From positions 43,309 through 107,308 of the forward strand of contig JADGNZ010000020.1 of assembly GCA_017883205.1 (NCBI GenBank): 64,000 nt of DNA, in the 5' to 3' direction. Each line of letters starts with the position of its first letter. The stretch's first letter is position 1. The translations under genes and the position numbers were made by a program. This DNA comes from Thermoanaerobaculia bacterium (GTDB taxonomy: Bacteria > Acidobacteriota > Thermoanaerobaculia > Gp7-AA8). Shown one piece after another: positions 2,046 through 56,745 of this stretch. The notes beneath the pieces are model-generated. The model made no database searches, was not told the origin of the DNA, and saw only the letters and a program-made list of their open reading frames with translations.

Positions 2046-2053
2046 TGTGACAC

Positions 2054-8443: not shown

Positions 8444-8866
8444 TTGAACTGTCCGCGTGATTCCGCAGTCCTGGAAGTGAAGTCGTTCGGTACGACCCCG
8501 GTCCGGACTTGCCCCGTCTGTAGCGGGATGTTCCTGGCGCATGGACAGTTGAACCAGGTGGCCGGCCCGATCCGAGGCGATCTCGAGTTCTGCACCGTCG
8601 ATCTCGACTCGTTTCAGCACGAAGACGCATACGGTCCGATTACCTGTCCGAACGACGGCGCCGCGATGGGCAAGGTCGACTTCAACATCGACACCACGAT
8701 CATCCTCGACTACTGCAAGAAGTGCCTCGGGTTCTGGATGGACGGCAAAGAGCTCGCCCGCATCAACGAAGAAGTGAAGCGCCTGAACGAAGCGGACGCC
8801 GAGGTCCCGGACCCGCTTCTTGTTCGCATCTCGCAGTTCTTCTGGAACCTGCCCCTGCCGCACTGA
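8444..8866 (+). CDS. Zinc-ribbon (TFIIB-type) protein
   Basis: This 140-residue protein contains two zinc-ribbon knuckle pairs: CPRD with CPVC near the N-terminus, and CPND with CKKC around residues 68-92. The latter is followed by GFWMDGKELARI, the hallmark of the zf-TFIIB-like family. These small proteins are cytoplasmic and their role is mostly undefined. The start is TTG at 8444, supported by AGGAGG six bases upstream and by the first Cys being residue 3. It follows the desaturase by about 75 bases on the same strand. Confidence 0.8.
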   Translation: MNCPRDSAVLEVKSFGTTPVRTCPVCSGMFLAHGQLNQVAGPIRGDLEFCTVDLDSFQHEDAYGPITCPNDGAAMGKVDFNIDTTIILDYCKKCLGFWMDGKELARINEEVKRLNEADAEVPDPLLVRISQFFWNLPLPH

Positions 8867-8884
8867 GCCTGCGTTTCAGACCTC

Positions 8885-8945
8885 GCCGAGGAGTGCGGTC
8901 GTCTCGACCGCGGGCATTCGGGCGTCTCGCCCGAGTGCTGTCAGG
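8885..8945. repeat. Short GC-rich hairpins after the zinc-ribbon gene
   Basis: GGTCGTCTCGACC and CATTCGGGCGTCTCGCCCGAGTG form two adjacent small dyads. The second shares the GGGCGTCTCGCCC core seen at 21660-21718. They probably act as 3'-end hairpins or are remnants of a dispersed repeat. The rest of 8867-9101 shows nothing else. Confidence 0.55.
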
Positions 8946-9101
8946 GCGGAGGTCGAAATTCGTCGACGTTCTTGCTGGCGTGAAGTGGCGTCGTAGTTTC
9001 TGCCGTGCAAACTCCCAGCGCCTCATCTGCGTTCATCTGCGTAATCTGCGGATCGCTTTTGTGGATTTCGCGCCGCCTCCGCCGCGTTCCACGCGTCGCT
9101 G

Positions 9102-41666: not shown

Positions 41667-44054
41667 ATGCCTGCCGATACACGATCCGATCGCAGCAACG
41701 TTCTTGAAGCCTCGGAGCTGAACCTCATGCACGCCTGGTGGCGTGCTGCGAACTACCTCTCCGTCGGCCAGATCTACCTGCTCGCCAATCCGTTGCTTCG
41801 TGAACCGCTGCTGCTGGAACACACGAAGCCGCGGCTTCTCGGACATTGGGGGACGACGCCGGGGCTCAACTTCATTTACGTGCATCTCAATCGCGTCATC
41901 AAGGCCCGCGATCTCAGCGTGATCTACATCGCCGGGCCGGGACATGGCGGGCCGGGGCTGGTTGCGAATACGTATCTCGAAGGGACGTACAGCGAGGTCT
42001 ACTCGAACATCAGTCAGGATGCCGATGGGCTGCGCCGGCTCTTCAAACAGTTCTCGTTTCCGGGCGGGATCCCCAGCCATGTCGCGCCGGAGACGCCGGG
42101 GTCGATTCACGAAGGTGGGGAGCTTGGCTACGCGCTCGTGCACGCGTACGGCGCGGTCTTCGACAATCCCGATCTCATCGCCGCATGCGTCGTCGGCGAC
42201 GGCGAGGCGGAGACGGGACCGATGGCGGCGAGCTGGCACTCAAACAAGTTTCTCAATCCGGCGCGCGACGGCGCGGTGCTGCCGATCCTGCATCTCAACG
42301 GATACAAGATCGCCAATCCCACGGTTCTGGCTCGCATCAGCAAAGACGAGTTGCGCGATCTCTTCCGGGGCTACGGCTACGAACCGCACTTTGTCGAAGG
42401 CGACGACCCGGCCACGATGCATCAGTTGATGGCAGCGGCAATGGATTCAGTCCTCGACGAGATTCGCGCCATTCAGACTGCTGCGCGAGCGAACGGATTC
42501 TCCGAGCGGCCCATCTGGCCGATGATCATCCTTCGCAGTCCCAAAGGCTGGACCGGGCCGAAGGAAGTGGACGGGAAACCGACGGAGAACTCGTGGCGAT
42601 CGCACCAAGTCCCATTCTCGGAGCTTGCGAGCAATCCGGGGCACCTCAAGCTGCTCGAAGAGTGGATGAAGAGCTACAAAGCCGAGGAGCTGTTTAGTGA
42701 TGCGGGGAAGTTGAGGCCGGAGATTGCTGCGCTCGCGCCACATGGCGACCGGCGCATGAGCGCCAATCCGCACGCGAACGGCGGCGTGCTGCTTCGCGAT
42801 CTGCATATGCCCGATTTTCGTGACTACGCAACGGACGTCGATGTTCCGGGCACCAAGTTGGCGGAGGCCACGCGCATCGCCGGAGCGTTCCTGCGCGACA
42901 TTATCCGGATGAATCCCGACAACTTCCGGCTCGTCGGTCCCGATGAAACTGCGTCCAACCGCCTCACCGCCGTCTTCGAAGCGACCGACCGCGTCTTCAC
43001 CGGAACGATCCTTCCGACCGACGATCACATCACTCACGAAGGCCGGGTCATGGAAGTGCTGAGCGAGCATCTCTGCCAGGGATGGCTGGAAGGCTACCTG
43101 CTCACCGGGCGGCACGGGCTCTTCAACTGCTACGAGGCCTTCATCCACATCATCGACTCGATGTTCAATCAGCACGCGAAGTGGCTGAAGACCACGCGCC
43201 ACATTCCGTGGCGGCGTCCGATCGCCTCGCTCAACTATCTGCTGACGTCGCACGTGTGGCGGCAGGATCACAACGGCTTCAGCCATCAGGATCCCGGCTT
43301 CATCGATCACGTCACGAACAAGAAGGCCGAGGTCGTGCGCGTCTATCTGCCGCCCGACGCGAATACCTTGCTCTCCGTGATGGACCACTGCCTGCGCAGC
43401 CGCAACTACGTGAACGTGATCATCGCCGGGAAGCAGCCGGCGTTGCAGTATCTCGACATGGACGCGGCCATCAAGCATTGCTCTGCCGGCGCCGGAATCT
43501 GGGAGTGGGCGAGCAACGACGAGAACGCCGAGCCCGACGTCGTGATGGCTTGCGCGGGCGACGTTCCTACGCTCGAGATTCTCGCTGCTGTCGATATCGT
43601 GCGGCAAAGGATTCCGGACTTGAAGGTCCGTGTCGTCAACGTCGTCGATCTGATGGCGCTGCAGCCGCCGTCGGAACATCCGCACGGACTCTCCGACGCC
43701 GACTTCGACTCGATCTTCACGACCAACCGCCCTGTCATCTTCGCCTTCCACGGCTACCCGTGGCTCATCCATCGCCTGACCTATCGCCGCAGGAACCACG
43801 ACAACCTTCACGTCCGGGGCTACAAAGAGGAAGGGACGACCACCACGCCGTTCGACATGACGGTGCTCAACAATCTCGACCGCTTCCACCTCGTGATCGA
43901 CGTCATCGACCGCGTGCCAGGACTCAACGACCGTTGCGCCCACGTGAAACAGGACATGCGCGACATGCTCGTCGAACATCATGAATACATCTGCGAGCAC
44001 GGCGACGATCTGCCGGCGGTGCGGGACTGGACATGGCCGCACAAACGCCCGTGA
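41667..44054 (+). CDS. xfp: Xylulose-5-phosphate/fructose-6-phosphate phosphoketolase
   Basis: This is a 795-residue ThDP enzyme of full family length. Signatures include [66 protein letters not shown] and the ThDP motif [24 protein letters not shown]. Later come [25 protein letters not shown] and [15 protein letters not shown]. It splits xylulose-5-P or fructose-6-P to acetyl phosphate and an aldose phosphate. The next gene, overlapping it, is acetate kinase, which turns acetyl phosphate into ATP and acetate. Together they make a phosphoketolase shunt. Confidence 0.96.
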
Positions 44055-45127
44055 ACATCCTGGCCATCAATCCGGGCAGTTCATCGCTGAAGTTCGGGCT
44101 GTACGCCTTCCCGGAGCCAGCCGAGGTCCTTGCGGCGGGCGACGAGAACGAGATCGCAGCGGACAAGATGGCCAACGCCGTCCACGATGCACTGAAACGT
44201 GTGAACGGCATGGAGATTCACGCCGCCGGATGCCGCGTCGTTCACGGCGGCGACACGTTCGTGGCTCCAGCACTCATCGACGACGAAGTGCTGGCAAAGA
44301 TCCAACAGCTCGCCGATCTCGCTCCTCTTCACAACCCAATCGCCGTCACCGCCATCACCGCACTGCGCACGGCGCTCCCGGGCGTGCCGATCGTGGCTGT
44401 GTTCGACACCGCGTTTCATCAGACGCTTCCTCCGGTGGCCCGGCACTACGCCATCCCTGACGATCTCCACATCCGCAGGTTCGGCTTCCACGGAATCTCG
44501 TACGCCTGGGTCTCGCACCGCCTCACCGCGCACATCCCCTCGCCCAAACGCGCCATCATCTGCCACCTCGGCAACGGCGCCAGCGTCTGCGCCCTCGCCG
44601 ATGGCGTCAGCATCGACACCAGCATGGGCCTCACACCGATGGAAGGCCTGGTCATGGGCACCCGCAGCGGCGACATCGATCCCGGCGCCATCCTCTATCT
44701 ATTGCGCAACGGAAAGAGCGCCGCCGAGGTCGATGAGATTCTCAATCACAAATCGGGACTGGCCGCACTCTCCGGCGGAACGAGCGACATGAAGAAGATC
44801 GTGGAGGCTGCGACGAGCGGCGACGACCGCGCCACTCTCGCTCTCGACCTCTTCTGCTATCGCGTCTCCAAGTACATCGGCTCCTACGCCGCTACCCTCG
44901 GCGGCCTCGACTGCCTCGCCTTCACCGCCGGAATCGGCGAGCACGCGCCGGTAGTCCGCGAGCGCATCTGCGCAAATCTCGCCTTCCTCGGCATCGAGAT
45001 CGACGAGTCCTTGAACCGCGCACAGCGATCCGACGAGCGCCTCATCAGCCGCGGGCGTGTCCCCGTATTCGTCATCCCCACAAACGAAGAGCAGCAGATC
45101 GCGCAGGAAACAAACCAATTGCTCTAA
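44033..45127 (+). CDS. ackA: Acetate kinase
   Basis: This 364-residue ASKHA-fold kinase has [19 protein letters not shown] at the start, [79 protein letters not shown] and [16 protein letters not shown]. It converts acetyl phosphate plus ADP to acetate plus ATP. The start overlaps the phosphoketolase gene by 22 bases, indicating a coupled pair. It is somewhat shorter than typical (about 400), mainly in the N-terminal third. Confidence 0.95.
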
Positions 45128-45146
45128 TTCGAATCAAGAACCATCA

Positions 45147-45211
45147 ACCACAGAGACACAGAGATCACAGAGTTGCATCGACGACCTCTGTGCTCTCTGT
45201 GCCTCTGTGGT
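45147..45211. repeat. Inverted repeat, CACAGAG family
   Basis: ACCACAGAGACACAGAGATC and the mirrored TCTCTGTGCCTCTGTGGT form arms of about 26 bases with two or three mismatches. It separates ackA from the accessory island and may end the ackA transcript. Confidence 0.85.
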
Positions 45212-45319
45212 GATCAGGTCTCTCCGGTCGCTCGCGCCGTACGTCCCGATCTCCGTCCGCGAGTCAGGCAGAATTCACGTACCGTCACCAAAAACAACCG
45301 TTATTGCGGAGGGTGTGGC

Positions 45320-46234
45320 GTGCTCATTGTCGATGCCTGCGAAGCCTTCATTCAAAACTGCGGCGGCGTTCGGAAGCTGTCGGAGCACACCACTCGGGCC
45401 TACCGGCTCGACCTGAACCGATTCGCCGGCTTCGCAGGCGCGGGAGCCGAGGTCACCTCCTGCGAGCGGGCTACGCTCCAGCAGTACATCGAGCATCTCT
45501 TCACCCAGCACAACCTCAAAGAGACCTCGGCCAAACGCCACGTGGCCTCGCTCCGCTCACTGTTCCGGTGGCTCGAGGATGAGGGCCACGTCCCCGAAGA
45601 TCCGTTCCGCGGCGCCCGCATCCGCATCCGTCTGCCGAAGCGTCTCCCGCGCGTGCTCTCCCGAGGCGAAGTGGCCGCGCTGCTCGATCAATCGCCGATG
45701 AACGGCGACTTCATCCAACTCTCCACCCGCGTCGCCGCCGAGCTCCTCTTCGCCACCGGCATCCGCGTCGCCGAGCTGGCCGCCCTCCGCGACGAGGACA
45801 TCGACCTCACCGCCGGCGTCATCACCATCACCGGCAAAGGCGACCGTCAGCGCCGCGTCTACATCCCCGACTCCGAGATCCGCGACCTGCTCGTCGCCTA
45901 CAACAAAGCCCGCACCGACCACGGCCACTCCGGCCCCGCGTTCCTGGTCAACTCGCGCGGCGGCCCCGCCTCCCCCCAATTCATCCGCCGCCTGATCCGC
46001 AAACTCGGCGAGCACGTCGCCCTGAACCGCCGCGTAACCCCCCACATGTTCCGCCACTCGATCGCCACGTACCTCCTGGAAGAAGGCGTAGACATCCGCT
46101 ACGTCCAACGCCTCCTCGGCCACCGCAGCATCGTCACGACGGAGATCTACACGCACGTGGCGGACGCCGCGCTGAAGTCAAGGGTGGTGGAGAGACATCC
46201 GCGGAAGACGATCGTGAGGAGGGTCGATGGATAA
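45320..46234 (+). CDS. Xer-type tyrosine recombinase, copy 1 (invertase of module 1)
   Basis: This is a 304-residue integrase with an N-terminal SAM-like core-binding domain (LSEHTTRAYRLDLNRFAGF; TSAKRHVASLRSLFRWLEDEG). Its catalytic domain keeps Arg149 (ATGIRVAELAAL), Lys173 (ITGKGDRQRR), His242/Arg245 (HMFRHSIATYLLEEG), His268 (LLGHRS) and Tyr277 (TEIYTHV). It is XerC/XerD-like but lies in an accessory island with its own sites. GTG 45320 is chosen because GGAGG lies seven bases upstream. Its TAA stop is part of the recombination site at 46230-46247. A second copy, nearly identical over about 870 bp, is at 50551-51438. Confidence 0.93.
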   Translation: MLIVDACEAFIQNCGGVRKLSEHTTRAYRLDLNRFAGFAGAGAEVTSCERATLQQYIEHLFTQHNLKETSAKRHVASLRSLFRWLEDEGHVPEDPFRGARIRIRLPKRLPRVLSRGEVAALLDQSPMNGDFIQLSTRVAAELLFATGIRVAELAALRDEDIDLTAGVITITGKGDRQRRVYIPDSEIRDLLVAYNKARTDHGHSGPAFLVNSRGGPASPQFIRRLIRKLGEHVALNRRVTPHMFRHSIATYLLEEGVDIRYVQRLLGHRSIVTTEIYTHVADAALKSRVVERHPRKTIVRRVDG

Positions 46235-46247
46235 CTGAGGATTATCC
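46230..46247 (+). other. Putative recombination site A of module 1
   Basis: GATAACTGAGGATTATCC overlaps the recombinase stop codon (GGATAA). Arms GGATAA and TTATCC flank a 7-base spacer, CTGAGGA, a size usual for tyrosine recombinase crossover regions. The same 18 bases occur in reverse orientation at 49926-49943. The spacer's GAGG lies seven bases before the GTG of the next gene and can act as its ribosome binding site. Confidence 0.82.
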
Positions 46248-47357
46248 GTGGAACCAGAGCTTGCGCGCCAGAACCTTCTCTCAGCTGCTCGCGCAAGACT
46301 GCATATCCGTCACGAGTTGGATGTCACCGGTGTGATCGCAGCTCAAAACGCGTGTGTCGGAATTGGCAAGATCATCCACGCGCTCGAATACCTCGGTATA
46401 CGTGGCGACGTCAACTTTGTCGCTTCGCTTGACTTTACGATTACTCGCCACGCGGGGCGGTGGGGCAGTGGATTCTCATACGGTGGAGCACTGGAGGTCA
46501 CCACCGATGGAAATGCAATCGCCTTCCCTGAGATCCGGCCTAACACTTGTGGAACAATCCTCGGCGTAATGAACACGATAATCTCGACTACTGAGTTAAT
46601 TAGTCGGGTGTGCGATGCCAGAAACGCGCGCACTGGTTCATTCGACTACAGCCGCAAAAACCATTTCATCAACGTCTATCGTTCTACAACAACTGATAAA
46701 CGGGTCTTCATCATCCATGGCTGCCCGGGGAATGTGAGGCTTGACACCGTTGACGGCCCAGGCTTGTACCTCGAGACATCAAATTATTGGCGTGCGCGAG
46801 CTCTATCGATCGACACGCCGCTCGGGCCACTGCAGCCACTGGTTGGCGAGCATGCGGTCGCATACTGGGAAAACTATCAACGCTGCGAAGCGAATTCGAA
46901 AGCTGATCGGCTGGCCATCGCCAAGGTCATCTTTGACGATTTCGAGGTTATGGCTAATCACACCCACGAGGGCATGCTTGCACCCCAGGTCTACCTTCAC
47001 GGCTGCCACGCCGCGGCAACAGCGGATCTTGTGTTCCCTGTCATGTCTTCGATGGGAGAGCCGGCGTTCCTCGTATCGAGGGACGTTGAGTCTCCGGTCA
47101 TCTGGAACAACGTCGCAGTTCTGCCTCACGGCACTGGCTACAGCATTCAGGTGCCCGCACGGAATTTCGAAATGCGATACATCTCCGAACGTGATCGCAT
47201 TTTCCTAGGCAGCGGCGCAGCACACCAGGAAGCATATTCAAGTTTTGAAGAAGTCCCATTCATCTATCGATCGAACCAGCACGTTCATGAATGGGCAAGC
47301 CGGAGAATGTTGTCGATTCGCGACGTGCTTCTACCCGAAGTCTTCCTGAAACTATGA
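46248..47357 (+). CDS. Hypothetical protein, first alternative gene of invertible module 1
   Basis: This 369-residue protein matches no family I know. It begins EPELARQNLLSAARARLHIRHELDVTG and has a glycine-rich beta region (GRWGSGFSYGGALEVTTDGNAIAF). Residues about 245-275 read MLAPQVYLHGCHAAATADLVFPVMSSMGEPAFL, and the C-terminus is polar. No signal peptide or obvious membrane helix is seen. The GTG start follows recombination site A directly, using the site's GAGG. Its stop is one base from the convergent STAND gene. Base composition is AT-richer than the housekeeping neighbours. Position makes it the currently selected alternative behind recombinase 1. Confidence 0.68.
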   Translation: MEPELARQNLLSAARARLHIRHELDVTGVIAAQNACVGIGKIIHALEYLGIRGDVNFVASLDFTITRHAGRWGSGFSYGGALEVTTDGNAIAFPEIRPNTCGTILGVMNTIISTTELISRVCDARNARTGSFDYSRKNHFINVYRSTTTDKRVFIIHGCPGNVRLDTVDGPGLYLETSNYWRARALSIDTPLGPLQPLVGEHAVAYWENYQRCEANSKADRLAIAKVIFDDFEVMANHTHEGMLAPQVYLHGCHAAATADLVFPVMSSMGEPAFLVSRDVESPVIWNNVAVLPHGTGYSIQVPARNFEMRYISERDRIFLGSGAAHQEAYSSFEEVPFIYRSNQHVHEWASRRMLSIRDVLLPEVFLKL

Positions 47358-47358
47358 C

Positions 47359-49932
47359 CTACTGCGCTGGGGCGTCGAGGATCGCCGCGTCGTACCGCTG
47401 CTGCGCCTCATGAGAACGCTGAGGCAGACCGATTCGGTCGAACGTTTCAACCGCAATAGCGAGCCAGCGTTCGGCTTCGCTCGTCCGCCCACGACGCACG
47501 CCTATGATGGCAAGCAACGTCGCCGTCATCGCCGCCTCCTTGCGGAAACCGCACTCCTCCGCCTTGCGGAATGCCTTTTGTCCGAAATCCCAAGCGACGT
47601 CGACATCGCCTTGGCGTAGCGCGAGACTTGCCAGTTCGTGCTGTGTAAAAACAACGCCTCGAACGTTTCCGGCACCACGCTTCAATGCGATGCTTTCATA
47701 AAAGAGTTGCTCCGCACCCGCAACGTCACCTCTGCGGGCGGAGATGAGTCCTAGGCGATGCAGCGCGTACGACTCTCGTTTACGGTCTTGAAGACGTCGG
47801 GATTCGACAAGAACGCGCGTCATAACCTCATGTGCGCCATTCAGATTGCCGCGTTTCAACTCGATCAGTCCCATGCGGTAGCGCACTTTGTTGGCGCCAA
47901 ATGCATCTCCCACTGCATCGAAAATATCCCTAGCACGTTGGTATGCGGATTGTGCTTGGTCTAGTTCGCGCCGAGCAAACAGTACTCGGCCGATCAGTGA
48001 CCACGCCGAACCGATAGTTCTGGACGTCGCGTCCGGCATGCCGATAACTGCCAGCGCCTCGTGGTCACAATCGTCAAACTCGCCAACGAGGTATAGCTGC
48101 CTCGCGATTTCAAGGCGATAGGCCGGGACTGCGTCGGGCGCATAGGTGGTCTCGAATGACCACGTTCGGAGCGTGGTTAGCGCCTCCGGCGCCCGACCAA
48201 GTCCGCTAAGAGCGCGTGCAGTGATCATGACAATACTTACGTGTAGTGCGCCAGTGAGCTTTTCGGATGGTATCCGCGATGCGAATTCGAGTGCGGCGTC
48301 CGCATGGCCCGTACGTATCAGCAACTCCCCCCGATTTCTCAGTAATTCGGCTGCTTCCTCGTAGGCTTCGGCAAGCAGGTAGTGATCGATCGCGACAGAG
48401 ACGCGATCGACGTTGTCGACGAAAGTCGCAAACCAACGGGCAAGGCCATGATCGATGGACGCCGGCTTACCAATGATTTCCCGAATCGGCGGTCGAAGGT
48501 CGATATGGATGGCCTCGGTCATTAATGCGTCGCGTCGTGCCAGACCTGCTAATTCCACCTCGGACCACGCTGTCACCAATTCTGATGCGGACGTTCCGAG
48601 AACGGAGCGCAATTCATCCGCGCCAATGTCGAGCTGGAGCGATGCGAGGACACCGAGCAGTTGTTTCGCGCCGCTGGACAGCTCATGCGTAATCGAATGA
48701 ATCGCCTCGCGCTCCACGCGTTCCGTCAGCACCTGAGTCGCTTTGACACTTCCGGCGGCGGACGACGCTAGCGTCGCGAGGAGCGGCCATCCGCCCCTTT
48801 CTCTGACTAAGTAACGCTTCAGAGCGGCAGGTGCCGATTGCCCACGGCGCTGAGCGAAAAGTGCGTCGATCGCGTTTCCGTTGAAGCCACCGAGCTCGAT
48901 GGAGAGGTCGGCCGCAAGGGAGAGTGAGGGTAGCGGTACGCGCGATGTAAATAGCACCCTCGACATCACTGAGTGAGTTGCCAAGGCTCGCAGAAATACG
49001 AGCGGAGCGGTACTGATACTTTCGCTGGCATTCACGTTGTCGACGGCGACAAGTGTTCTGCTCCCAGCGATCGCCGTACCAGCCTCGAACGCGATTTCTT
49101 CAGCATCGTTCCAGCCATAGCGACGCACGTGGTTCAGCAGTCGCTCGTCATGGTGGTCAACGGCGAGACATTTCGCGAGCCGCAGAACGAACGGTCCAAG
49201 GTCTCGGAGAAGGCTACCGAACGACACAGGGACGACGGAATACCCCTGACGTCGGGCCGTGTGCAAGACTTTCGAGACGAGCATGGATTTACCAAAGCCC
49301 GGCGGGGCGACTACCGTCGCGCAGCGATAAGACTCAAACGACTCCAAGCGCGCAACCTCGTCCTCCCGGTTCACGAAGAACCGCGGCTGTGGGGGCTCAA
49401 ATGGCGTGTAACCCTCATCCATGCGGCTGTCGTAGATTCCGGACACACGTATGCGCCGATGCTCGGTGATGCGGTGGTAGATCTCACTGTGGATGGTCTC
49501 GATCAACGACCTCCGTCTGTGCGAATTCTTGCGTTGACGCAGGATTACTTCGGCGTGATCTAGAAACGTTCCATCCCATACGATTGTCGCGAATGCCCTG
49601 TTGGAACGAGTTCCCACGAGCCAGTCGAACGCATCAGCTCCGATACGCGCGTTGGTAGCGAGCACCAGCGCGTCGGGCACATGTACCGCCGCCCAAGACA
49701 CGGCGCCATCGATATCGGCTCGATCGATGGAGCGCGAGCGGTACTTGCATTCAACGATAAGCTTTAGGCGTTCGTCAGGCGCTGACCGGACGGTGGCCTC
49801 GACTATCAGGTCACGACCCCGATCACCACCAGGCCCTAGATGAATGATGCTATCGAATCCAAGCTCGGCGCAGATGGAGGCGACCCTTTTTTCGAAGGCG
49901 GTGCCGGTCGATGGGGTTGTCGTTGGGATAAT
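47359..49932 (-). CDS. PD-(D/E)xK nuclease-STAND NTPase-TPR protein, second alternative gene of module 1
   Basis: From recombination site C the frame is open for about 857 codons. Residues 1-110 form an Mrr-like nuclease: GFDSIIHLGPGGDRGRDLIVEA with Asp41, then LIVECKYRS with Glu61 and Lys63. A STAND/NB-ARC-like NTPase follows: Walker A APPGFGKS (about 210-216), Walker B TLVAVDN (about 297) and RVLFTSR. The C-terminal half is TPR-like (SLIGRVLFARRELDQAQSAYQRARDIFDAVG and similar). This is the architecture of NLR-like antiviral proteins. No ATG, GTG or TTG precedes GTG 49701, which would remove the nuclease residues. Only CTG, ATT or ATC codons in the site are available, so 49932 (ATT) is nominal. 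Confidence 0.82.
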   Translation of the reverse strand: MIPTTTPSTGTAFEKRVASICAELGFDSIIHLGPGGDRGRDLIVEATVRSAPDERLKLIVECKYRSRSIDRADIDGAVSWAAVHVPDALVLATNARIGADAFDWLVGTRSNRAFATIVWDGTFLDHAEVILRQRKNSHRRRSLIETIHSEIYHRITEHRRIRVSGIYDSRMDEGYTPFEPPQPRFFVNREDEVARLESFESYRCATVVAPPGFGKSMLVSKVLHTARRQGYSVVPVSFGSLLRDLGPFVLRLAKCLAVDHHDERLLNHVRRYGWNDAEEIAFEAGTAIAGSRTLVAVDNVNASESISTAPLVFLRALATHSVMSRVLFTSRVPLPSLSLAADLSIELGGFNGNAIDALFAQRRGQSAPAALKRYLVRERGGWPLLATLASSAAGSVKATQVLTERVEREAIHSITHELSSGAKQLLGVLASLQLDIGADELRSVLGTSASELVTAWSEVELAGLARRDALMTEAIHIDLRPPIREIIGKPASIDHGLARWFATFVDNVDRVSVAIDHYLLAEAYEEAAELLRNRGELLIRTGHADAALEFASRIPSEKLTGALHVSIVMITARALSGLGRAPEALTTLRTWSFETTYAPDAVPAYRLEIARQLYLVGEFDDCDHEALAVIGMPDATSRTIGSAWSLIGRVLFARRELDQAQSAYQRARDIFDAVGDAFGANKVRYRMGLIELKRGNLNGAHEVMTRVLVESRRLQDRKRESYALHRLGLISARRGDVAGAEQLFYESIALKRGAGNVRGVVFTQHELASLALRQGDVDVAWDFGQKAFRKAEECGFRKEAAMTATLLAIIGVRRGRTSEAERWLAIAVETFDRIGLPQRSHEAQQRYDAAILDAPAQ

Positions 49933-49943
49933 CCTCAGTTATC
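49926..49943 (-). other. Putative recombination site C of module 1 (inverted partner of site A)
   Basis: On the minus strand it reads GATAACTGAGGATTATCC, identical over 18 bases to 46230-46247 and in opposite orientation. It sits at the 5' edge of the nuclease-STAND frame. Its TAA is in frame with that gene, mirroring the stop codon of recombinase 1. Confidence 0.82.
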
Positions 49944-50049
49944 AGGTGGAGGCACACGTCCTCCAAATAAGGAGTGACGCATCGCAGTGTTTCCCTACCC
50001 TTCTCACCAAGTTTATCAAACTCGTCACCGTTGCCGGGCTAGCCATTGA

Positions 50050-50545
50050 CCCGACCACTCCGCCGAAACACCCCCGCAGCCGCCTCAACCCCTCAGGGGT
50101 CTTCGCGGTCGCGATTCCCCCGTACCCGAGCACGTTCGCGGGCTGCGCCCTTCCGCTTGCCCGGTATCCGGATAGCTGGCCGAAGGCCACATCGTTCGCG
50201 GCGAGGGCGGCGAGGTCGCGTTCGTGTAACGCGGCTCTGCGAGAGCACCGTCGCGGCGATGTTGATTCCGGTAGCTGCGGGATGGGCGGAGACAGTCGGT
50301 TTGCAGGGTGAGCAGGATCATGGCGTGGCGTTCGGCGTAGATGCGGTGCATTTTGCTGAGGTGGCGGCGGAGGACGCCTTCATCGATGAAGGTTGCGAGA
50401 GGGCGGCTTGGGCGGGCCATTGAGTGCAGCGGGCGGCGACCCTGGATGGCGGCGCGGAGGGGGTGGCGCAACGATGGGGAGCGAATCAGGAAGCCGAAGC
50501 GGAGGGCGGGGAGGAGGATTTGGAGAGGGAGCCAGCGTAGATCAC
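50050..50545 (-). pseudogene. MocR-type regulator/aminotransferase remnant, C-terminal part
   Basis: Minus-strand frames give VIYAGSLSK, the PLP-lysine region. After a frame change comes ILLPALRFGFLIRSPSLRHPLRAA with RPLATFIDEGVLRRHLSKMHRIYAERHAMI. After another frame change comes ERDLAALAANDVAFGQLSGYRASGRAQPANVLGYGGIATAKTPEGLRRL. All fit the aminotransferase-like domain of MocR/PdxR regulators. The gene is frameshifted at least twice. It is cut at its 5' side by recombinase copy 2; the missing upstream part lies at 54500-54650. Confidence 0.85.
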
Positions 50546-50550
50546 GCAAG

Positions 50551-51438
50551 ATGCCTGCTAAGCCTTCATGCGGCGGCGTCCGAAAGCTGTCGGAGCACAC
50601 CACGCGGGCCTACCGGCTCGACCTGAACCGATTCGCCGGTTTCGCGGGCGCGGGAGCCGAGGTCACCTCCTGCGAGCGGGCCACGCTCCAGCAATACATC
50701 GAGCACCTCTTCACCCAGCACAACCTCAAGGAGACCTCGGCCAAACGCCACGTGGCATCGCTCCGCTCGCTCTTCCGATGGCTCGAGGATGAGGGTCACG
50801 TCCCCGAGGATCCGTTCCGCGGCGCGCGCATCCGCATCCGCCTGCCGAAGCGTCTCCCGCGCGTGCTCTCCCGAGGGGAAGTGGCCGCGCTGCTCGATCA
50901 ATCGCCGATGAACGGCGACTTCATCCAGCTCTCCACCCGCGTGGCCGCCGAGCTCCTCTTCGCCACCGGCATCCGCGTGGCCGAGCTGGCCGCCCTCCGC
51001 GACGAAGACATCGACCTCACCGCTGGCGTCATCACCATCACCGGCAAAGGCGACCGCCAGCGCCGCGTCTACATCCCCGACTCCGAGATCCGCGACCTCC
51101 TGCTGACCTACAACAAAGCCCGCACGGACCACGGCCACTCCGGCCCCGCGTTCCTGGTGAACTCGCGCGGCGGCCCCGCCTCCCCCCAATTCATCCGCCG
51201 CCTGATCCGCAAACTCGGCGAGCACGTCGCCCTGACGCGAAGGGTGACCCCCCACATGTTCCGCCACTCGATCGCCACCTACCTCCTCGAAGAAGGCGTA
51301 GACATTCGCTACGTCCAACGTCTCCTCGGCCACCGCAGCATCGTCACGACCGAGATATACACGCACGTGGCGGACGCCGCGCTGAAGTCGCGGGTGGTGG
51401 AGAGGCATCCGAGGAAGACGATTGTGAGGCGAAGCTGA
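50551..51438 (+). CDS. Xer-type tyrosine recombinase, copy 2 (invertase of module 2)
   Basis: This 295-residue recombinase differs from copy 1 (45320-46234) by only a few substitutions (for example LLTYNKARTD for LVAYNKARTD, and ALTRRVT for ALNRRVT) and keeps every catalytic residue. Homology between the copies begins abruptly at about 50550. The first residues (MPAKPSCGG) replace the longer N-terminus of copy 1, so this copy is slightly 5'-truncated at the junction with the MocR remnant. ATG 50551 has only a weak ribosome binding site. The stop is followed after two bases by site B. Confidence 0.92.
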   Translation: MPAKPSCGGVRKLSEHTTRAYRLDLNRFAGFAGAGAEVTSCERATLQQYIEHLFTQHNLKETSAKRHVASLRSLFRWLEDEGHVPEDPFRGARIRIRLPKRLPRVLSRGEVAALLDQSPMNGDFIQLSTRVAAELLFATGIRVAELAALRDEDIDLTAGVITITGKGDRQRRVYIPDSEIRDLLLTYNKARTDHGHSGPAFLVNSRGGPASPQFIRRLIRKLGEHVALTRRVTPHMFRHSIATYLLEEGVDIRYVQRLLGHRSIVTTEIYTHVADAALKSRVVERHPRKTIVRRS

Positions 51439-51440
51439 CG

Positions 51441-51457
51441 GATAACTAGGAATTATC
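51441..51457 (+). other. Putative recombination site B of module 2
   Basis: GATAACTAGGAATTATC lies directly after recombinase copy 2. It keeps the GATAA/TTATC arms of sites A and C but has a different 7-base spacer (CTAGGAA). Sixteen bases, GATAACTAGGAATTAT, recur in reverse orientation at 53120-53136. Confidence 0.8.
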
Positions 51458-51495
51458 TTCGAGCTGCCATCCCGAATGCGCTCTCGCTTTCGCGA

Positions 51496-52026
51496 GTGCT
51501 GATGGCTGCGGCAGTCGTCTTCATGTCGCCATGGATCACCCGCCGCACGTGGTTGGCGACAGTGATTGTGATTGCCGTTGCCATGATCACCGACGCATTC
51601 GACGGTTACCTCGCGAGGCGATGGCGTGTCACAAGCGAGGCGGGGTACGTTCTCGATGCGATGGGTGATCGCTCGATTCATCTCGCGCTGATCCTAGTCG
51701 TTTTCGTTCACTATCAAGTCAATGCTGTGTTGATCTGGCTGCTGGTCCTTCGCGACATTGCCATCTACGCTGTACGAGTGTTGACCCGGGACTGGTTGGC
51801 CAGATCTAGAGAACTACAGTGGCTTTCGCGCTTTCATGCAACGAACCTGCGGATTTGGCTCGCCAGTTATTATCTTCGCGACGGAATTCGAGTATTCACG
51901 GGGCGCGATCCGCTCGACGTCTTCTGGTTCGAGTGCACTCAAACTCTTCTCGTGGCGTTCACGATCGTTCTGTCATACTATGGATTGACAAGAAGCTTGG
52001 GCTGGATTACCGACGACCAAGTATGA
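51496..52026 (+). CDS. CDP-alcohol phosphatidyltransferase-family protein, first alternative gene of module 2
   Basis: This membrane enzyme carries the family signature DAFDGYLARRWRVTSEAGYVLDAMGDR (DGxxARx8Gx3Dx3D) and several hydrophobic helices. Such enzymes transfer phosphatidyl or related groups from CDP-alcohols. The conserved N-terminal family sequence AAIPNALSLSRVLM starts upstream of the first usable codon, GTG 51496. The frame is open back through site B to the recombinase TGA without ATG, GTG or TTG. Either a non-standard start in or near the site is used, or the gene is expressed only after a rearrangement. It converges with the next gene, 13 bases apart. Confidence 0.82.
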   Translation: MLMAAAVVFMSPWITRRTWLATVIVIAVAMITDAFDGYLARRWRVTSEAGYVLDAMGDRSIHLALILVVFVHYQVNAVLIWLLVLRDIAIYAVRVLTRDWLARSRELQWLSRFHATNLRIWLASYYLRDGIRVFTGRDPLDVFWFECTQTLLVAFTIVLSYYGLTRSLGWITDDQV

Positions 52027-52039
52027 GTATTGAGTGAAC

Positions 52040-53113
52040 TTAGGATTTTGCGAAACTTACGATGGCCACGGCTGCAGAAATGAGATTGATCAAGCCTACA
52101 ACCGCCAGCGCGCTCTTCGTGTACGGCAATGTATGCATCGCCATGACGTGTCCTCGAAATGCCAGAAGGTTGTCCGCAAACTCGCCTCCGCCAAAAGTGT
52201 TACTAAGTTGAGCATTCAGTATCCTATTGGCAGCTTCGATACACTCCTCTTTTTTTTGCGCGACGAGCCGCTGAATGTAGTACACGCCTAAGACATTTTG
52301 TACTAGCAACAGAAAACATCCAAACAACGACACATCCATGACTAAGTACGTGTGCTTATGTGTCCAAAACATAACGAGCGGCACCGTAAGCAGGCATGCC
52401 CATAGCGCAAGGATCAATAAGTTGAGCATGCCAAACCGTGAAGCACCGCCGCAATTATCGCTGTGAAACACGTTGATTTGTAGAATCCGATGCCGGCTTA
52501 CGAATTTAAGTAGCACGACGATCGAGAATGTAACGCTGGTTGCCAAGAACACGGCAATCGACCAGGCGATAGCAAACACGAGAAAAACGTAGACTTTCGT
52601 GACGTAAAAGCCGTGCGGATGCTTGAGGGCATCGAACACGTCGTGCCCGTAGGTAGGCATAGGGTCAATGGTCATCAGAACGTTATAAACGCCGAAACCG
52701 GCAAACACGAGGCTCAGGAGGACGAGAAGTGTAGAGGACCATGACCTCAGCGACACGTGACTCACCAGACGGTTGACGAGACACTCCAGTTCAACTTTGG
52801 TGTCTGTACCAACTCCGACGAAGTGCACGTCCAGTTGGGTAACCGTCGCCATAAAGCGATCGAGTAGGATGGTCGACAGGATGAGAATCAGGGGGGTGGT
52901 GGCGAAAATGGCCCAAAATCCGTAGTGCTGCGACAGTCCCTTGCCATCGATCGGAAGTGCGAGGGTGTCGTCGAGTTCGCAACACCAAGCGATTAGAAAT
53001 GGGAAAGCGCTGAACAAGATGAGCGCAACGAGCCGGCGAGAGAGATGCGGTATTCCCGCGACCGACGAGGAGTCCAGCACGAAGTATCGTCTTGCCGGTT
53101 CTGGCGTGGACAT
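52040..53113 (-). CDS. Multi-pass membrane protein, second alternative gene of module 2
   Basis: This 357-residue protein has about six transmembrane helices: LVALILFSAFPFLIAW, FWAIFATTPLILILSTILL, TLLVLLSLVFAGFGVYNVL, VYVFLVFAIAWSIAVFL, LNLLILALWACLLTVPLVMFW and MDVSLFGCFLLLVQNVLGVYYI. A final hydrophobic stretch is at the C-terminus. No family is recognised. ATG 53113 lies six bases after recombination site D, whose AGGA may serve as a distant ribosome binding site. It is AT-richer than the genome average and sits in the invertible segment opposite the CDP-alcohol gene. Confidence 0.75.
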   Translation of the reverse strand: MSTPEPARRYFVLDSSSVAGIPHLSRRLVALILFSAFPFLIAWCCELDDTLALPIDGKGLSQHYGFWAIFATTPLILILSTILLDRFMATVTQLDVHFVGVGTDTKVELECLVNRLVSHVSLRSWSSTLLVLLSLVFAGFGVYNVLMTIDPMPTYGHDVFDALKHPHGFYVTKVYVFLVFAIAWSIAVFLATSVTFSIVVLLKFVSRHRILQINVFHSDNCGGASRFGMLNLLILALWACLLTVPLVMFWTHKHTYLVMDVSLFGCFLLLVQNVLGVYYIQRLVAQKKEECIEAANRILNAQLSNTFGGGEFADNLLAFRGHVMAMHTLPYTKSALAVVGLINLISAAVAIVSFAKS

Positions 53114-53119
53114 GTGCGC

Positions 53120-53136
53120 AATAATTCCTAGTTATC
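53120..53136 (-). other. Putative recombination site D of module 2 (inverted partner of site B)
   Basis: On the minus strand it reads GATAACTAGGAATTATT, identical to site B over 16 bases and in opposite orientation. It abuts the 5' end of the membrane-protein gene, as site C abuts the nuclease-STAND gene. Confidence 0.8.
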
Positions 53137-53180
53137 GTTGTCTCTGGGTGTGCACTGGGGGCTAGCATCCGAGTGGGCGT

Positions 53181-54392
53181 TCATTCCGTAAGTGTACTCT
53201 CTAAAGTGTCGATCTCGTCGACGGCGTACCGTTCGGATTGCCAGGTGAGTGCGAGCCGAAGGCTGTCGGCGTGCGTCACTGCGACGAGCATCATCGGGAG
53301 AACCGGCCCGGTTGACACCACGCCACGCACGTTACGAATGTACTCATCCCTGGGAAGTGACGGGACACGAACGTTGGTGAAGCCTGCCGTGGGCATGTAC
53401 GCTGTGTGCGGGGCTGGTCCTGCAGCTCCCTCTCGTCCGGCGGGCCACAAAGTGGCTGCCACGCCAATCCCGATCAGTGATCGCAGATACGACCGGCTGC
53501 GCTTCTCGATGTCTGTCTGACGTCGAATAACCGCAATCAAGTCGTCGCCTTCGTTCACGAATACTGGAAAAGCAGCAACGCCGATACCTCGTGCCAGCGG
53601 CGCGACCCCCCTGCGCAGGGAGACCGCCAGGGACAAGCCGACCGTGTGGCGTTCGGCAGTCAACTCACTCTTGTGGATTGCGAGTAGGCCTCGCGCAAAG
53701 CGAGCAGCGAGAATGTCGTTCACGGTCACACCCGGCCCGTCCGCTATTCGCCGCACTCGTGTCAGAAGTTGATCGTCCTGCCGAAGAAAGCGTATGGACA
53801 CGGCCGGACCCGTTCCGCGAGCCGGTCGACTGTAGACATCTCGCATCCGCCAGAAGTCGCGAACCACGCGAAAGTAAAATTGAGGGTTGAGCCACGCATA
53901 ACCGTCGGACAAGAAGAGACGTCCGCGTTGGTTCGCGCCGATGTCGATGCGTGGAATATCCGCACCGACCGCCCGGAGCAGAGTGCGCCTGGCGAAGACG
54001 GAGGCGCTGTGGCCATCGAACGCGAGATGACGAAACGTGATTGAGACCGTCGAAATCGCTTCAGTTCCCCCTGGTTTCACAGGTGCGAGAGCTACCCTTA
54101 CCGGCGCTCCGTCATCGAAAGGCCGGTTTAGCTCGGTCTCGGCGTCGCGGTCCACATCATCGATTTGTCGTACCTCGACAAACGTTACCGGGTTGAACGA
54201 ATACCTGCGACCCGCACCGAATTCGATGGCGCCGAGCCGCATTTCCGTCAGCGTGTCCGCCGCCGCCTTTTGCAGCAGGCCAGCATCAATACCGCCCGCG
54301 ATGTCCGCTACGCACACGAAGTTGTACGGGTGCACGAGCTCCCATCGACGGATTAGCTCTTGGAACGAGCTGCGTTTGAGGATATTACTCAT
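53181..54392 (-). CDS. Condensation/acyltransferase-like protein (HxxxD superfamily)
   Basis: This 403-residue protein resembles free-standing condensation domains of the chloramphenicol acetyltransferase/NRPS-C/PapA superfamily. The active-site motif is RHLAFDGHS (HxxxDG) around residue 165. A conserved-looking GVTVNDILAARFARGLL and the C-terminal FTNVRVP with FGDLP-like region follow. It could join an acyl group to an alcohol or amine, plausibly a lipid given the CDP-alcohol gene nearby. ATG 54392 is chosen because it directly follows a degenerate copy of the recombination site (TTATCC then CATG). It may be a third cassette gene of module 2. Confidence 0.75.
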   Translation of the reverse strand: MSNILKRSSFQELIRRWELVHPYNFVCVADIAGGIDAGLLQKAAADTLTEMRLGAIEFGAGRRYSFNPVTFVEVRQIDDVDRDAETELNRPFDDGAPVRVALAPVKPGGTEAISTVSITFRHLAFDGHSASVFARRTLLRAVGADIPRIDIGANQRGRLFLSDGYAWLNPQFYFRVVRDFWRMRDVYSRPARGTGPAVSIRFLRQDDQLLTRVRRIADGPGVTVNDILAARFARGLLAIHKSELTAERHTVGLSLAVSLRRGVAPLARGIGVAAFPVFVNEGDDLIAVIRRQTDIEKRSRSYLRSLIGIGVAATLWPAGREGAAGPAPHTAYMPTAGFTNVRVPSLPRDEYIRNVRGVVSTGPVLPMMLVAVTHADSLRLALTWQSERYAVDEIDTLESTLTE

Positions 54393-54393
54393 G

Positions 54394-54412
54394 GGATAAC
54401 TTAGTATATTAG
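54394..54412 (-). other. Degenerate recombination-like site E
   Basis: On the minus strand CTAATATACTAAGTTATCC ends immediately before the condensation-like gene's start. The TTATCC arm matches sites A-D, but the opposite arm (CTAATA) and spacer do not. It may be an inactive or half site marking a third cassette. Confidence 0.45.
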
Positions 54413-54499
54413 TCGAGCTTTGTATCGATATGTGCACACCCGGCGTGAAATCAGCGACAAGTTGAGGTTCAGCGAATTCTGACGATTTGAGTAAGCAGT

Positions 54500-54650
54500 G
54501 AAACGGAGCTCGCTGTCGTAATCGTCTTCGATGATGACGCGTTGCGGCGCTCGGCGCACGCGAGGAGCGGCGCGCGTGCGACATCGGCATCCCCAGCGGG
54601 ACGTGATTCGATGGCGTAGACGAGACTGACCTCGTTCGGCAGGGAGGCGA
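54500..54650 (-). pseudogene. MocR-type regulator/aminotransferase remnant, upstream part
   Basis: Minus-strand frames encode PNEVSLVYAIESRPAGDADVARAPLLACAERRNA and, after a one- or two-base shift, VIIEDDYDSELRF, the hallmark of MocR-type PLP domains. The sequence breaks off right after SELRF. The next expected segment (VIYAGSLSK) is found at 50545, on the other side of module 2. This is the 5' portion of the same interrupted gene. Its DNA-binding N-terminus is not visible. Confidence 0.83.
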
Positions 54651-54706
54651 CCTCGATGCTTCGGTCTTTTCGGCGTCGAAAGCTTTCTTTCGGCTGGCTC
54701 GAAAAG

Positions 54707-54775
54707 CAGGTCACGCGGAGGCGCGGGGAAGCGGAGAAAAGAACCTCCGCGGTCTCCGCGTCTCCGCGTGCCAAT
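54707..54775. repeat. CGCGGAG snap-back repeat
   Basis: GGTCACGCGGAGGCGCGG and CCGCGTCTCCGCGTGCC form imperfect arms of about 25 bases around a short loop. It is related to 14206-14252. It lies just upstream of the debranching-enzyme gene; 54413-54816 otherwise contains only the MocR remnant. Confidence 0.75.
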
Positions 54776-54816
54776 CTCTTTCATGCTCCCGCGACACCCG
54801 TGGCATCCTTGCAGCC

Positions 54817-56745
54817 ATGGATCGCCGGGAATGGCTGGAGACCAACGGGATCGGCGGGTACGCCAGCTCCACCGTTTGCGGAATCAACACGCGCCGGTAT
54901 CACGGGCTGCTCGTTGCGGCGACGAAGCCACCGGTGGGGCGGGTGGTGCTGCTTTCGAAGCTCGATGAGCGCATCACGATCGGGCGGTCGACCATCGACC
55001 TCGGCGCGAACCAGTTTCCGGGCGCGATCCATCCGCGCGGGTTCAAGCACCTGCTCTCGTTCGAGCGGGGAGTTTTTCCCACGTTCGAGTATGCCGCCGA
55101 GGGGGTGCGGATCAGGAAGACGATCGCGGCGATTCATGGCGAGAACACGACGGTCATCGTTTACGAATTGCTGGAGTCGTCGGCGGAGGTGACGCTGGAG
55201 CTGCGGCCGTTCATCGCCGGACGCGACTATCACTCGCTCGTTCATGCGAACGACGGCATTCATCGCGAGGCCGTGTTCGATGACGGCGTCTTCGCGCTAC
55301 AGCCGTACGATGGGCTTCCGACGCTCTTTCTGAGTGTGCCCGAGGGGGCGTTTCATCCGGCGCCGGACTGGTACTTCCGTTTCGAATACGCGATCGAGCA
55401 GGAGCGCGGGCTCGAGGCGCACGAGGATCTCTTCACGCCCGGGACGTTCTCTCGGCTGCTCGCGAAGGGAACGGCGCTCGCCGTGATCGCATCGACATCC
55501 GATCCTCGGGGGCGGGACGGGTTGGCGTTGTTCGAGCAAGAGCGCCGACGCCGCGAAGCGATCGCGAACGCGGCGCCGATGACGGGCCGGTTCGGACGTG
55601 CGCTCACGTTCGCGGCCGATCAGTTCATCGTCCGGCGCGGCGCCGACCGGAAGACGATCATCGCCGGCTATCACTGGTTCACCGACTGGGGGCGCGACAC
55701 GATGATCGCGCTGCCCGGGCTTTGTCTCACCACTAGCCGCTTCGAAGATGCGCGCAGCATCCTGCTCGCGTTCGCCGAGTGCGCGAGCGATGGGATGCTT
55801 CCGAACTGCTTTCCCGATGGCGGCCAGGCGCCCGAATACAACACGGTCGATGCCACGCTCTGGTTTTTCATCGCCGCGCAGCGCTATCTCGAAAGCAGCG
55901 GCGACGAAGCTTTCGTGCGCGACAGGCTGCTGCCGGTGCTGCGCGACATCGTTGCCTGGCACGAGCGCGGAACGCGGCACAACATCCACGTCGATGACGA
56001 CGGCTTGCTCATCGCCGGCAGCGAGGGCGATCAGCTCACGTGGATGGATGCGAAGGTCGGCGACTGGGTGGTCACGCCGCGGCACGGCAAAGCGGTCGAG
56101 GTCAACGCGCTCTGGTTCAACGCGCTGATGATCCTTGCGAACCTCGAGCAGCGATGGGGGACGGCGGACGCATCCCGTGCGCTGACCGAGTCCGCGGCGC
56201 GCGTGCGCATTCGCTTCCGCGAGGTCTTTTGGAACGAAGCGGGCAGCTCGCTGTTCGACGTCGTGCGCGGTGAAGATCGCGACGCCAGCATTCGTCCGAA
56301 TCAGATTTTCGCCATCAGCCTTCCGCATCCTCTCCTCGACGGCGCCGACGCGGAGAACGTGCTGCGCATCGTCGAGCAGCATTTGCTGACGCCGCGGGGA
56401 TTGCGGTCACTGTCGCCGGAAGATCCTCGCTTCATCGGCACCTACATCGGCGGCCCGCGCGAGCGCGACGCCGCCTATCATCAAGGAACAGTCTGGTCCT
56501 GGCTCCTCGGCCCCTACATCACCGCGCTGGTTCGCGTGCGCGGCGAAGCCGGAATCGCCGAGGGCCAGCGCATCCTCAAAGCATTCCAGCCTCACCTCGA
56601 GGAATCGTGCATCGGCACCATCTCCGAAATCTTCGACGGGTCACCCCCGCATGCGCCGCGCGGCTGCGCCGCACAGGCGTGGAGCGTGGGAGAGGTTTTG
56701 CGCGCGGCGGTGGAGGATCTGGGGATGGGGGCTCCGTCGGGCTGA
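54817..56745 (+). CDS. Glycogen debranching enzyme family protein (amylo-alpha-1,6-glucosidase type)
   Basis: This 642-residue protein has the GDE N-terminal domain (EWLETNGIGGYASSTVCGINTRRYHGLLVAA) and a C-terminal (alpha/alpha)6 catalytic barrel. The barrel holds IIAGYHWFTDWGRDTMIALPGL, PNCFPDGGQAPEYNTVDATLWFFIA and LTWMDAKVGDWVVTPRHGKAVEVNALW. The closing YHQGTVWSWLLGPYITALVR with AQAWSVGEVLR is typical of GH133-like debranching enzymes. It hydrolyses alpha-1,6 branches in glycogen. The start at ATG 54817 fits the family N-terminus. The gene is monocistronic, followed by a 21-bp array. Confidence 0.93.
   Translation: MDRREWLETNGIGGYASSTVCGINTRRYHGLLVAATKPPVGRVVLLSKLDERITIGRSTIDLGANQFPGAIHPRGFKHLLSFERGVFPTFEYAAEGVRIRKTIAAIHGENTTVIVYELLESSAEVTLELRPFIAGRDYHSLVHANDGIHREAVFDDGVFALQPYDGLPTLFLSVPEGAFHPAPDWYFRFEYAIEQERGLEAHEDLFTPGTFSRLLAKGTALAVIASTSDPRGRDGLALFEQERRRREAIANAAPMTGRFGRALTFAADQFIVRRGADRKTIIAGYHWFTDWGRDTMIALPGLCLTTSRFEDARSILLAFAECASDGMLPNCFPDGGQAPEYNTVDATLWFFIAAQRYLESSGDEAFVRDRLLPVLRDIVAWHERGTRHNIHVDDDGLLIAGSEGDQLTWMDAKVGDWVVTPRHGKAVEVNALWFNALMILANLEQRWGTADASRALTESAARVRIRFREVFWNEAGSSLFDVVRGEDRDASIRPNQIFAISLPHPLLDGADAENVLRIVEQHLLTPRGLRSLSPEDPRFIGTYIGGPRERDAAYHQGTVWSWLLGPYITALVRVRGEAGIAEGQRILKAFQPHLEESCIGTISEIFDGSPPHAPRGCAAQAWSVGEVLRAAVEDLGMGAPSG

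Follow-up and report, generated by a model that had tools for sequence, protein, structure and literature searches.

A 64,000-nucleotide stretch of DNA from a Thermoanaerobaculia bacterium (Acidobacteriota; GenBank assembly GCA_017883205.1, contig JADGNZ010000020.1, positions 43,309 to 107,308; hereafter the window) contains two neighboring modules, in each of which a tyrosine recombinase gene is followed by two facing gene blocks enclosed by inverted sites of 17-18 bases (Table 1). The recombinase probably flips the site-bounded DNA, with a predicted fixed promoter beyond the far site driving whichever of the two facing blocks adjoins it. With its 7-bp core between the arms GATAA and TTATC, the site is built like a Xer/dif-type core site, and because the cores are equal and opposite in orientation, recombination between them would invert the DNA rather than excise it. 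The adjacent recombinase would perform the inversion and the far-side promoter would act as fixed driver, while the gene on the recombinase side would be off, shielded in most Bacillota modules by a terminator-like hairpin, or in other groups be only weakly coupled to the recombinase. The two genes would act as partners, in many modules as an enzyme with a sensor or an effector, and a flip would shift which of them dominates in the cell: module 1 sets an RtcB-like RNA ligase against an Mrr-STAND-TPR nuclease, and module 2 a lipid-headgroup enzyme against a predicted channel. Exchange of cassettes between modules seems to occur as well. Judged from sequence, the module design is real and is spread over several phyla, with a putative role in defense.

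A first-pass annotation of the window, made from its letters alone, had noticed that the recombinase gene of module 1 (rec1) ends inside an 18-base sequence that recurs in the opposite orientation. Both observations are correct: the stop codon TAA of rec1 (46232-46234) lies within site S1, GATAACTGAGGATTATCC (46230-46247, plus strand), and an exact inverted copy, site S2, occurs at 49926-49943 on the minus strand. The 6,374,606-base genome contains no other exact copy, and matches with three mismatches occur at four other places in it. The window holds no further match at up to three mismatches, and 100 shuffles gave none, ruling out a chance repeat. The annotation missed the second module (50551-53136), which has the same design of recombinase, inverted site pair and two facing genes. 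The recombinase gene of this module (rec2) is 94% identical to rec1 over a 300-nt block and differs from it at the N-terminus through an 8-nt deletion. An arms-only search of the window (GATAA-N7-TTATC, at most one mismatch) found four places, all of them module ends, with 0.36 expected and a largest count of 3 in 100 shuffles. The cores are equal within each pair and different between pairs (CTGAGGA/CTGAGGA and CTAGGAA/CTAGGAA). Rec1 itself is a full-length open frame with Pfam matches to Phage_integrase (1.5e-35) and to a SAM-like N-terminal domain.

Alignment of loci L142 and L144, from two species of one family, gives strong support to both site-specific inversion and the exchange of cassettes. 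These loci share a 7,711-bp cassette that is 99.1% identical and inverted, with breakpoints at the sites, between colinear flanks of 86% identity on the recombinase side (1,204 bp) and 84% on the far side (757 bp). An inverted cassette between colinear flanks is the outcome predicted by site-specific inversion, and the jump in identity at the cassette ends suggests that the cassette has been exchanged as well; a DNA search of 400 genomes recovered these two copies only. Comparison of relatives for the opposite orientation, a check proposed in the first-pass annotation, found that the bounded DNA occurs both ways round in other families of cargo too. In the pair formed by an ATP-grasp enzyme and a STAND protein, the enzyme lies at the far site in six modules (L026, L031, L062, L067, L139 and L150) and the STAND protein in seven (L029, L034, L036, L042, L069, L134 and L145), the larger partner in L031, L139 and L150 having been assigned partly by position and size; L145 and L062, for instance, have opposite orientations. 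The pair of module 2 (a CDP-alcohol phosphatidyltransferase-like protein and a membrane protein) is reversed in Devosia (L053) relative to the window, and a pair of a methyltransferase and a 336-aa protein is reversed between L038 and L153. The L024/L072, L028/L060 and L147/L050 pairs were each found in a single orientation. In one Blautia genome, 394 bp at L045 (7989-8382) and L046 (11024-11416) are 99.2% identical, lie inside opposite sites and then diverge; this was not counted as a flip, since the match stops after 394 bp, and the shared end could reflect a mosaic or partial exchange.

The position of promoter-like signals suggests which end of the segment is driven. Sigma-70-like promoters were scored in the 90 bp outside each site with approximate, general matrices, and in 34 of 36 modules the flank of the far site outscored that of the near site (L050 and L064 being omitted for short flanks). 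As the near side consists mostly of recombinase coding DNA, the inward and outward strands outside the far site were also compared, with L147 omitted in addition; the inward strand scores higher in 25 of 35 modules (p 0.0014), including 10 of 12 from Bacillota. Six Bacillota modules (L142, L144, L147, L150, L151 and L154) carry TTGNNA-17-TATAAT ending no more than 20 bp from the far site, and a hairpin of -13 to -37 kcal/mol separates recombinase and near site in 12 of the 38 modules parsed. Beyond the far site of module 1, a promoter-like element, GGTAGGGA-N12-CGTCACTCC, faces inward. It has 16 copies in the genome (in L116-L131) at up to one mismatch, including that in the window, against none for the backward control, and it also occurs beyond the far site in L024, L025 and L072, though not in module 2. 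The longer frame starts downstream of the element at 12 of the 16 places (p 0.025); the window's copy, whose gene has no canonical start, is among the four exceptions. The element resembles an uncharacterized class of promoter or operator, often located right upstream of gene starts. This promoter-side evidence makes the far end the likely driver, opposite to the polarity of the first-pass annotation, in which the upstream signals of the recombinase drive the chosen gene. That annotation also took the 369-residue protein of module 1 to be the current state; from the location of the element outside S2, it is probably the STAND gene, and not the RtcB-like gene, that now sits at the promoter end.

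The same architecture was parsed in 38 modules from eight phyla, including that of the source organism (Acidobacteriota, Pseudomonadota, Bacteroidota, Cloacimonadota, Thermodesulfobacteriota, Bacillota, Verrucomicrobiota and Saccharibacteria), and gene blocks face each other in 36 of them; only L142 and L144, which carry copies of a single cassette, depart from this. Cultured carriers include Methylobacterium radiotolerans JCM 2831 (plasmid pMRAD01, at about 402.0-405.6 kb), Herbaspirillum sp. alder98, Blautia caecimuris DSM 29492 and Oleiagrimonas citrea MEBiC09124. Related recombinases have the same type of site close to their stop codon, with an inverted partner about 1.5-7.7 kb beyond, which upholds the earlier assignment of the site pair to the recombinase. 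The modules contain 29 different cores, the core CTAGGAA occurring in six of the 38. Among 81 recombinase genes surveyed, each followed by 1.5 kb or more of sequence, and with identical cores required, the motif lies near the stop codon in 44, an inverted same-core partner occurs within 8 kb in 30, and a direct partner occurs in none; shuffling each downstream stretch once yielded no pairs. The lack of direct same-core partners within 8 kb rules out an integron-like direct array. The identity of cores within survey pairs is partly built in by the search requirement, from which the arms-only searches are free. Three pairs missed by the survey script (L050, L064 and L072) and five loci added after the survey (L150, L151, L153, L154 and L155) are counted among the 38 modules, the former three falling outside the 30; late loci were picked by recombinase similarity, and 30/81 is not an unbiased rate.

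An unguided inverted-repeat search of 80 loci from a genome-contig scan identified site-like pairs in 23 of the 56 genes with more than 2 kb downstream (25 pairs were returned, with L073 and L094 discounted as not site-like). The pattern GATAACTNAGGATTATC has five matches in 148 genomes of the class, every one of them next to this recombinase family, with none for the backward control. A search with the family recovered long recombinase matches in genomes G007, G008, G016 and G017 and a part-length match in G010; paired sites are present at L025 (739/3301), L024 (7919/10119) and L072 (9981/12202), loci that were equated with G008, G016 and G007 respectively from identical site positions or spacing plus sequence. 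At four of 12 places, the arms-only search in relatives found single sites (G003, G007:C152, G009 and G010). Among ten regions fetched additionally, pairs occur in L142, L144, L145 and L147 and not in L140, the other five (L141, L143, L146, L148 and L149) having less than 2.3 kb downstream; five of six further regions have pairs (L152 has none), as do two of three others (L138 ends at the gene). Mobile elements contributed little: 19 loci came from viral contigs, of which three were scanned and L156 alone reached at least 35% identity, with no pair there, and of 13 plasmid records five were scanned (two near-duplicates), giving one pair (L134). The system is rare: in three families, a close recombinase (at the cut-offs used) occurs in 7 of 392, 14 of 400 and 7 of 397 genomes.

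Several observations weigh against a switch with a far-side promoter. No pair was found for 51 of the 81 surveyed recombinase genes. Of these, 31 are merely 30-37% identical to the nearest query and 20 are at least 40% identical; the 20 include L050, L064 and L072 (two rows), which have the script-missed pairs, and some others that are cut short. Pairs were nonetheless absent at L037 (72% identity, 7 kb downstream, near-site motif present), L049 (66%) and L140 (65%), rescanning nine pairless loci at up to four mismatches revealed none, and the G017 recombinase (61%) has no site in the following 250 bp. At L072 the pair lies about 3.4 kb beyond the intact recombinase, adjoining a recombinase fragment, and this locus is possibly a rearranged module. 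The L142/L144 cargo is not a simple facing pair, and about 200 bp immediately beyond its far site cannot be aligned. Both modules of the window were seen in one orientation only, with no flipped close relative. The strand asymmetry outside Bacillota is weak (inward higher in 15 of 23 modules, p 0.065), and module 2 yielded no promoter. The reading frames raise a further difficulty: the first-pass annotation described two convergent genes in module 1, one base apart, with 5' ends touching the sites, and the frames agree with this, yet the cargo B frame (47359-49938), which reaches S2, has no ATG, GTG or TTG before a GTG at 49701 that already lies within the nuclease domain. Likewise, the cargo A frame of module 2 is open back to the rec2 stop codon and has its first canonical start at GTG 51496; a non-canonical start or re-initiation is possible for both frames. 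Finally, Thoeris requires both of its parts simultaneously, which fits partner swapping in the Thoeris-like modules poorly unless both ends give some expression.

Alternative explanations account for parts of these data. It is possible, if on balance doubtful, that the inverted sites act as a dock at which whole two-gene cassettes are swapped, much as in engineered recombinase-mediated cassette exchange, inversion being a by-product. Facing genes that start at each site would let a cassette work either way round, the identity of the L142/L144 cassette far exceeds that of its flanks, and the near-identical rec1 and rec2 are followed by unrelated cargo. Cargo classes are also unclustered on the recombinase tree (21 changes compared with 22.4 after shuffling, 47 of 200 shuffles being as low), although this tree was built quickly and has long branches, and two of the classes ('other' and glycosyltransferase/REase-STAND) are mixtures. 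Sharing of the core CTAGGAA among modules would permit such swaps, but the number of different cores would bar most exchanges, and a hairpin on one side with promoter signals on the other suggests an on/off choice instead of orientation-neutral expression. The opposite polarity, in which the promoter of the recombinase drives the near-site gene and the far gene is silent, is quite unlikely: translational coupling is conceivable in the 22 of 38 modules in which the recombinase stop codon lies -8 to +15 nt from the near site, but the promoter scores favor the far side, a strong hairpin follows the recombinase in nearly a third of modules, and a recurrent promoter-like element lies beyond the far site of module 1.

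It is also unlikely that an old switch has become inactive in this genome, its sites persisting as the 5' ends of genes. The unclear start codons of two window genes, the altered N-terminus of rec2 and the shared orientation of the homologous L024 and L072 pairs are compatible with decay; however, the cores have stayed equal within pairs while differing between modules, and rec1 is full-length with both Pfam integrase domains. A transposon-like element that moves as a unit, with the inverted sites as its ends, would explain variable cargo beside a constant recombinase family, but is very improbable given that the recombinase lies outside the site-bounded DNA in the parsed modules and that pairs are inverted and never direct (0/81), an arrangement in which a dif-like reaction would invert the DNA and not excise it.

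Inversion switching with a far-side promoter thus remains the preferred reading, and a bolder version of it may be given slightly less than an even chance. It holds that the modules are pan-bacterial, cargo-agnostic two-sided coins, composed of a Xer-like invertase, matched inverted dif-like sites and a swappable cassette, through which the cells of a clone stochastically become producers or responders of immune-like systems. One face would bear a signal-making or repair enzyme and the other a receptor, killer or channel, as in the Thoeris, ATP-grasp/STAND, RtcB/nuclease-STAND and lipid enzyme/chemoreceptor-like channel combinations.

The cargo, with genes called by a simple longest-ORF (open reading frame) rule, provides the basis for the inferred common theme of an enzyme facing a sensor or effector. 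The 369-aa protein of module 1, earlier described as unknown, has an RtcB RNA-ligase fold, and its ligase activity is putative. It has no Pfam match at an E-value of 1, but C101, N138-H139, H157, H240 and H294 are invariant in 12 sequences; these residues resemble the catalytic set of RtcB and may be its counterparts. Its partner had been called a nuclease-STAND-TPR protein, of which the nuclease and TPR parts are supported (Mrr_cat 34.8 bits, with a Pfam cut-off of 21; TPR_12 39.8 bits), whereas the P-loop/STAND matches fall under Pfam cut-offs. The best PADLOC match of this protein is PDC-M58A (5e-6), covering residues 13-122 only, and BLASTP at 1e-3 detected no homology between the module 1 proteins and the ATP-grasp/STAND pair. 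The 357-aa membrane protein of module 2 is predicted to have a fold closest to the insect gustatory/odorant receptor channels, and could represent a relative of these receptors in prokaryotes, or a look-alike. In profile comparisons, the membrane cargo of L053 is related to it, and that of L024/L072 and L059 has no detectable kinship to it.

Elsewhere the cargo is diverse. The record of Methylobacterium radiotolerans pMRAD01 names its pair as a D-alanine--D-alanine ligase and an ATP-binding protein, and some modules combine a glycosyltransferase with a P-loop protein, that of L027 having a significant Mrr nuclease domain. L024 encodes a lycopene-cyclase-like FAD enzyme and a hydrophobic protein without a Pfam match, L025 has a sub-threshold lycopene-cyclase match, and L059 encodes a polyprenyl synthetase and a hydrophobic protein. 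Several cargo genes have no family match. Two modules, L147 and L050, are Thoeris-like in sequence. L147 (reverse complement 1497-3740) has convergent TIR and SIR2-STALD genes, with Pfam matches to STALD (1.1e-38), SIR2_2 (3.3e-21) and TIR_2 (1.3e-14) and defense-family matches to ThsA (7.8e-101) and TIR/ThsB (1e-10); the L050 pair consists of relatives of these proteins (64% and 51% identity) and is linked to Thoeris via L147 only. The L147 genes are like the anti-phage system Thoeris in these matches and unlike it in facing each other within a putative invertible module beside a recombinase.

Gene-choosing DNA inversion switches include Hin (H1/H2), Gin of phage Mu (the G segment) and Cin of P1. 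As in these systems, a dedicated recombinase would flip a segment and alternative genes would be expressed; theirs are serine recombinases that select versions of one function, whereas here an Xer-like tyrosine recombinase adjoins two unrelated facing genes with diverse cargo. The promoter of a promoter inverton lies inside the flipped segment; in the 90-bp outer flanks scored here, the best candidates are outside the far site. Systems of the hsdS/shufflon type join homologous alternative gene parts, whereas the cargo genes of one module gave no match to each other in any of 26 modules (BLASTP, 1e-3). Integrons likewise combine a tyrosine recombinase, a site beside its gene and exchangeable cargo, but here the sites are paired and inverted, without a direct-repeat array. 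Compared with RtcB, the 369-aa protein is about 110 residues shorter, has 11-14% identity and lies opposite a nuclease-sensor gene. The 859-codon Mrr-P-loop-TPR frame resembles P-loop NTPase conflict systems. In an account of STAND/Mrr conflict systems of multicellular prokaryotes (Kaur et al. 2020, PMC7159879), a term search found no inversion or phase variation, and its one mention of recombinase is in the title of a reference. Tyrosine-recombinase invertons comprise FimB/FimE, PsrA/CreX with hsdS, RecV in C. difficile and gut invertons (PMC11892184); they share with the present modules the tyrosine recombinase, short inverted repeats and reversible inversion (here proposed), and differ in flipping a promoter or shuffling parts of one gene family instead of a whole two-block cassette with its predicted promoter outside.

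Most known cases of reversible DNA inversion concern surface structures and restriction specificity. The reaction type is known; to our knowledge, the architecture, cargo and breadth found here are not known from earlier work, and such modules are not described in the titles and abstract openings found among open-licence PMC papers. From sequence comparisons, inversion seems to control modules that pair an enzyme with a sensor, Thoeris-like ones among them, in several phyla. One recent phage-defense case of inversion is PinQ, which inverts the e14 P segment in E. coli and protects against phage T2; there, a serine recombinase acting on a distant prophage generates chimeric tail-fiber proteins, and no paired enzyme/sensor cassette is involved (PMC12529663). 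If the proposed switching is true, cells of one clonal population can differ in immune-like state, uncharacterized conflict systems can be found via their flanking sites, and nature already employs inverted-site cassette exchange. It would also predict partnerships between an ATP-grasp enzyme and a STAND sensor, an RtcB-like ligase and a nuclease sensor, and a lipid enzyme and a chemoreceptor-like channel.

Table 1. Features of the two modules in the window (positions count from its first letter).
Feature	Coordinates	Strand	Basis or remark
rec1, XerC/D-like tyrosine recombinase	45320..46234	+	GTG start; translation
Site S1, GATAA-CTGAGGA-TTATC(C)	46230..46247	+	Inverted exact copy at 49926
Module 1 cargo A, RtcB-fold RNA-ligase-like protein (putative activity), 369 aa	46248..47357	+	GTG directly after S1
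Module 1 cargo B, Mrr nuclease - P-loop (STAND-like) - TPR	47359..49938	-	Open frame, 859 codons
Site S2, inverted copy of S1	49926..49943	-	Exact match
Promoter-like element GGTAGGGA-N12-CGTCACTCC, outside S2, facing inward	49971..49999	-	Recurrence in genome
rec2, second recombinase copy	50551..51438	+	Phage_integrase 4.9e-35; alignment to rec1
Module 2 cargo A, CDP-alcohol phosphatidyltransferase-like	51439..52026	+	CDP-OH_P_transf 1.9e-15
Site S3, GATAA-CTAGGAA-TTATC = GATAACTAGGAATTATC, past rec2 stop	51441..51457	+	Sequence
Module 2 cargo B, membrane protein, 357 aa	52040..53113	-	Fold prediction
Site S4 = GATAACTAGGAATTATT, inverted partner of S3	53120..53136	-	Same 7-bp core, one arm mismatch

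Some minor features accompany the modules. The cargo B frame of module 1 (47359-49938, minus strand) would be in frame with a recombinase stop codon only after a flip, and in module 2 the stretch of the cargo A frame without a canonical start (51439-51495, plus strand) is in frame with a recombinase stop codon as it stands. Upstream of rec1, at 45147-45211, lies a 26-nt inverted repeat of 92% complementarity (ACCACAGAGACACAGAG...); an Rfam search of 44000-56000 with E up to 1 gave just five matches, to microRNA families, all below gathering thresholds and all at this repeat (45141-45217). At L072, a gene for an FAD oxidoreductase (8772-9968, minus strand) has its start immediately beyond the near site and is directed away from it, beside the truncated recombinase copy. 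Past module 2, a degenerate site-like sequence, GGATAACTTAGTATATTAG, at 54394-54412 directly precedes the possible ATG (54392) of a minus-strand gene ending at 53181, and is possibly the remnant of a further site.

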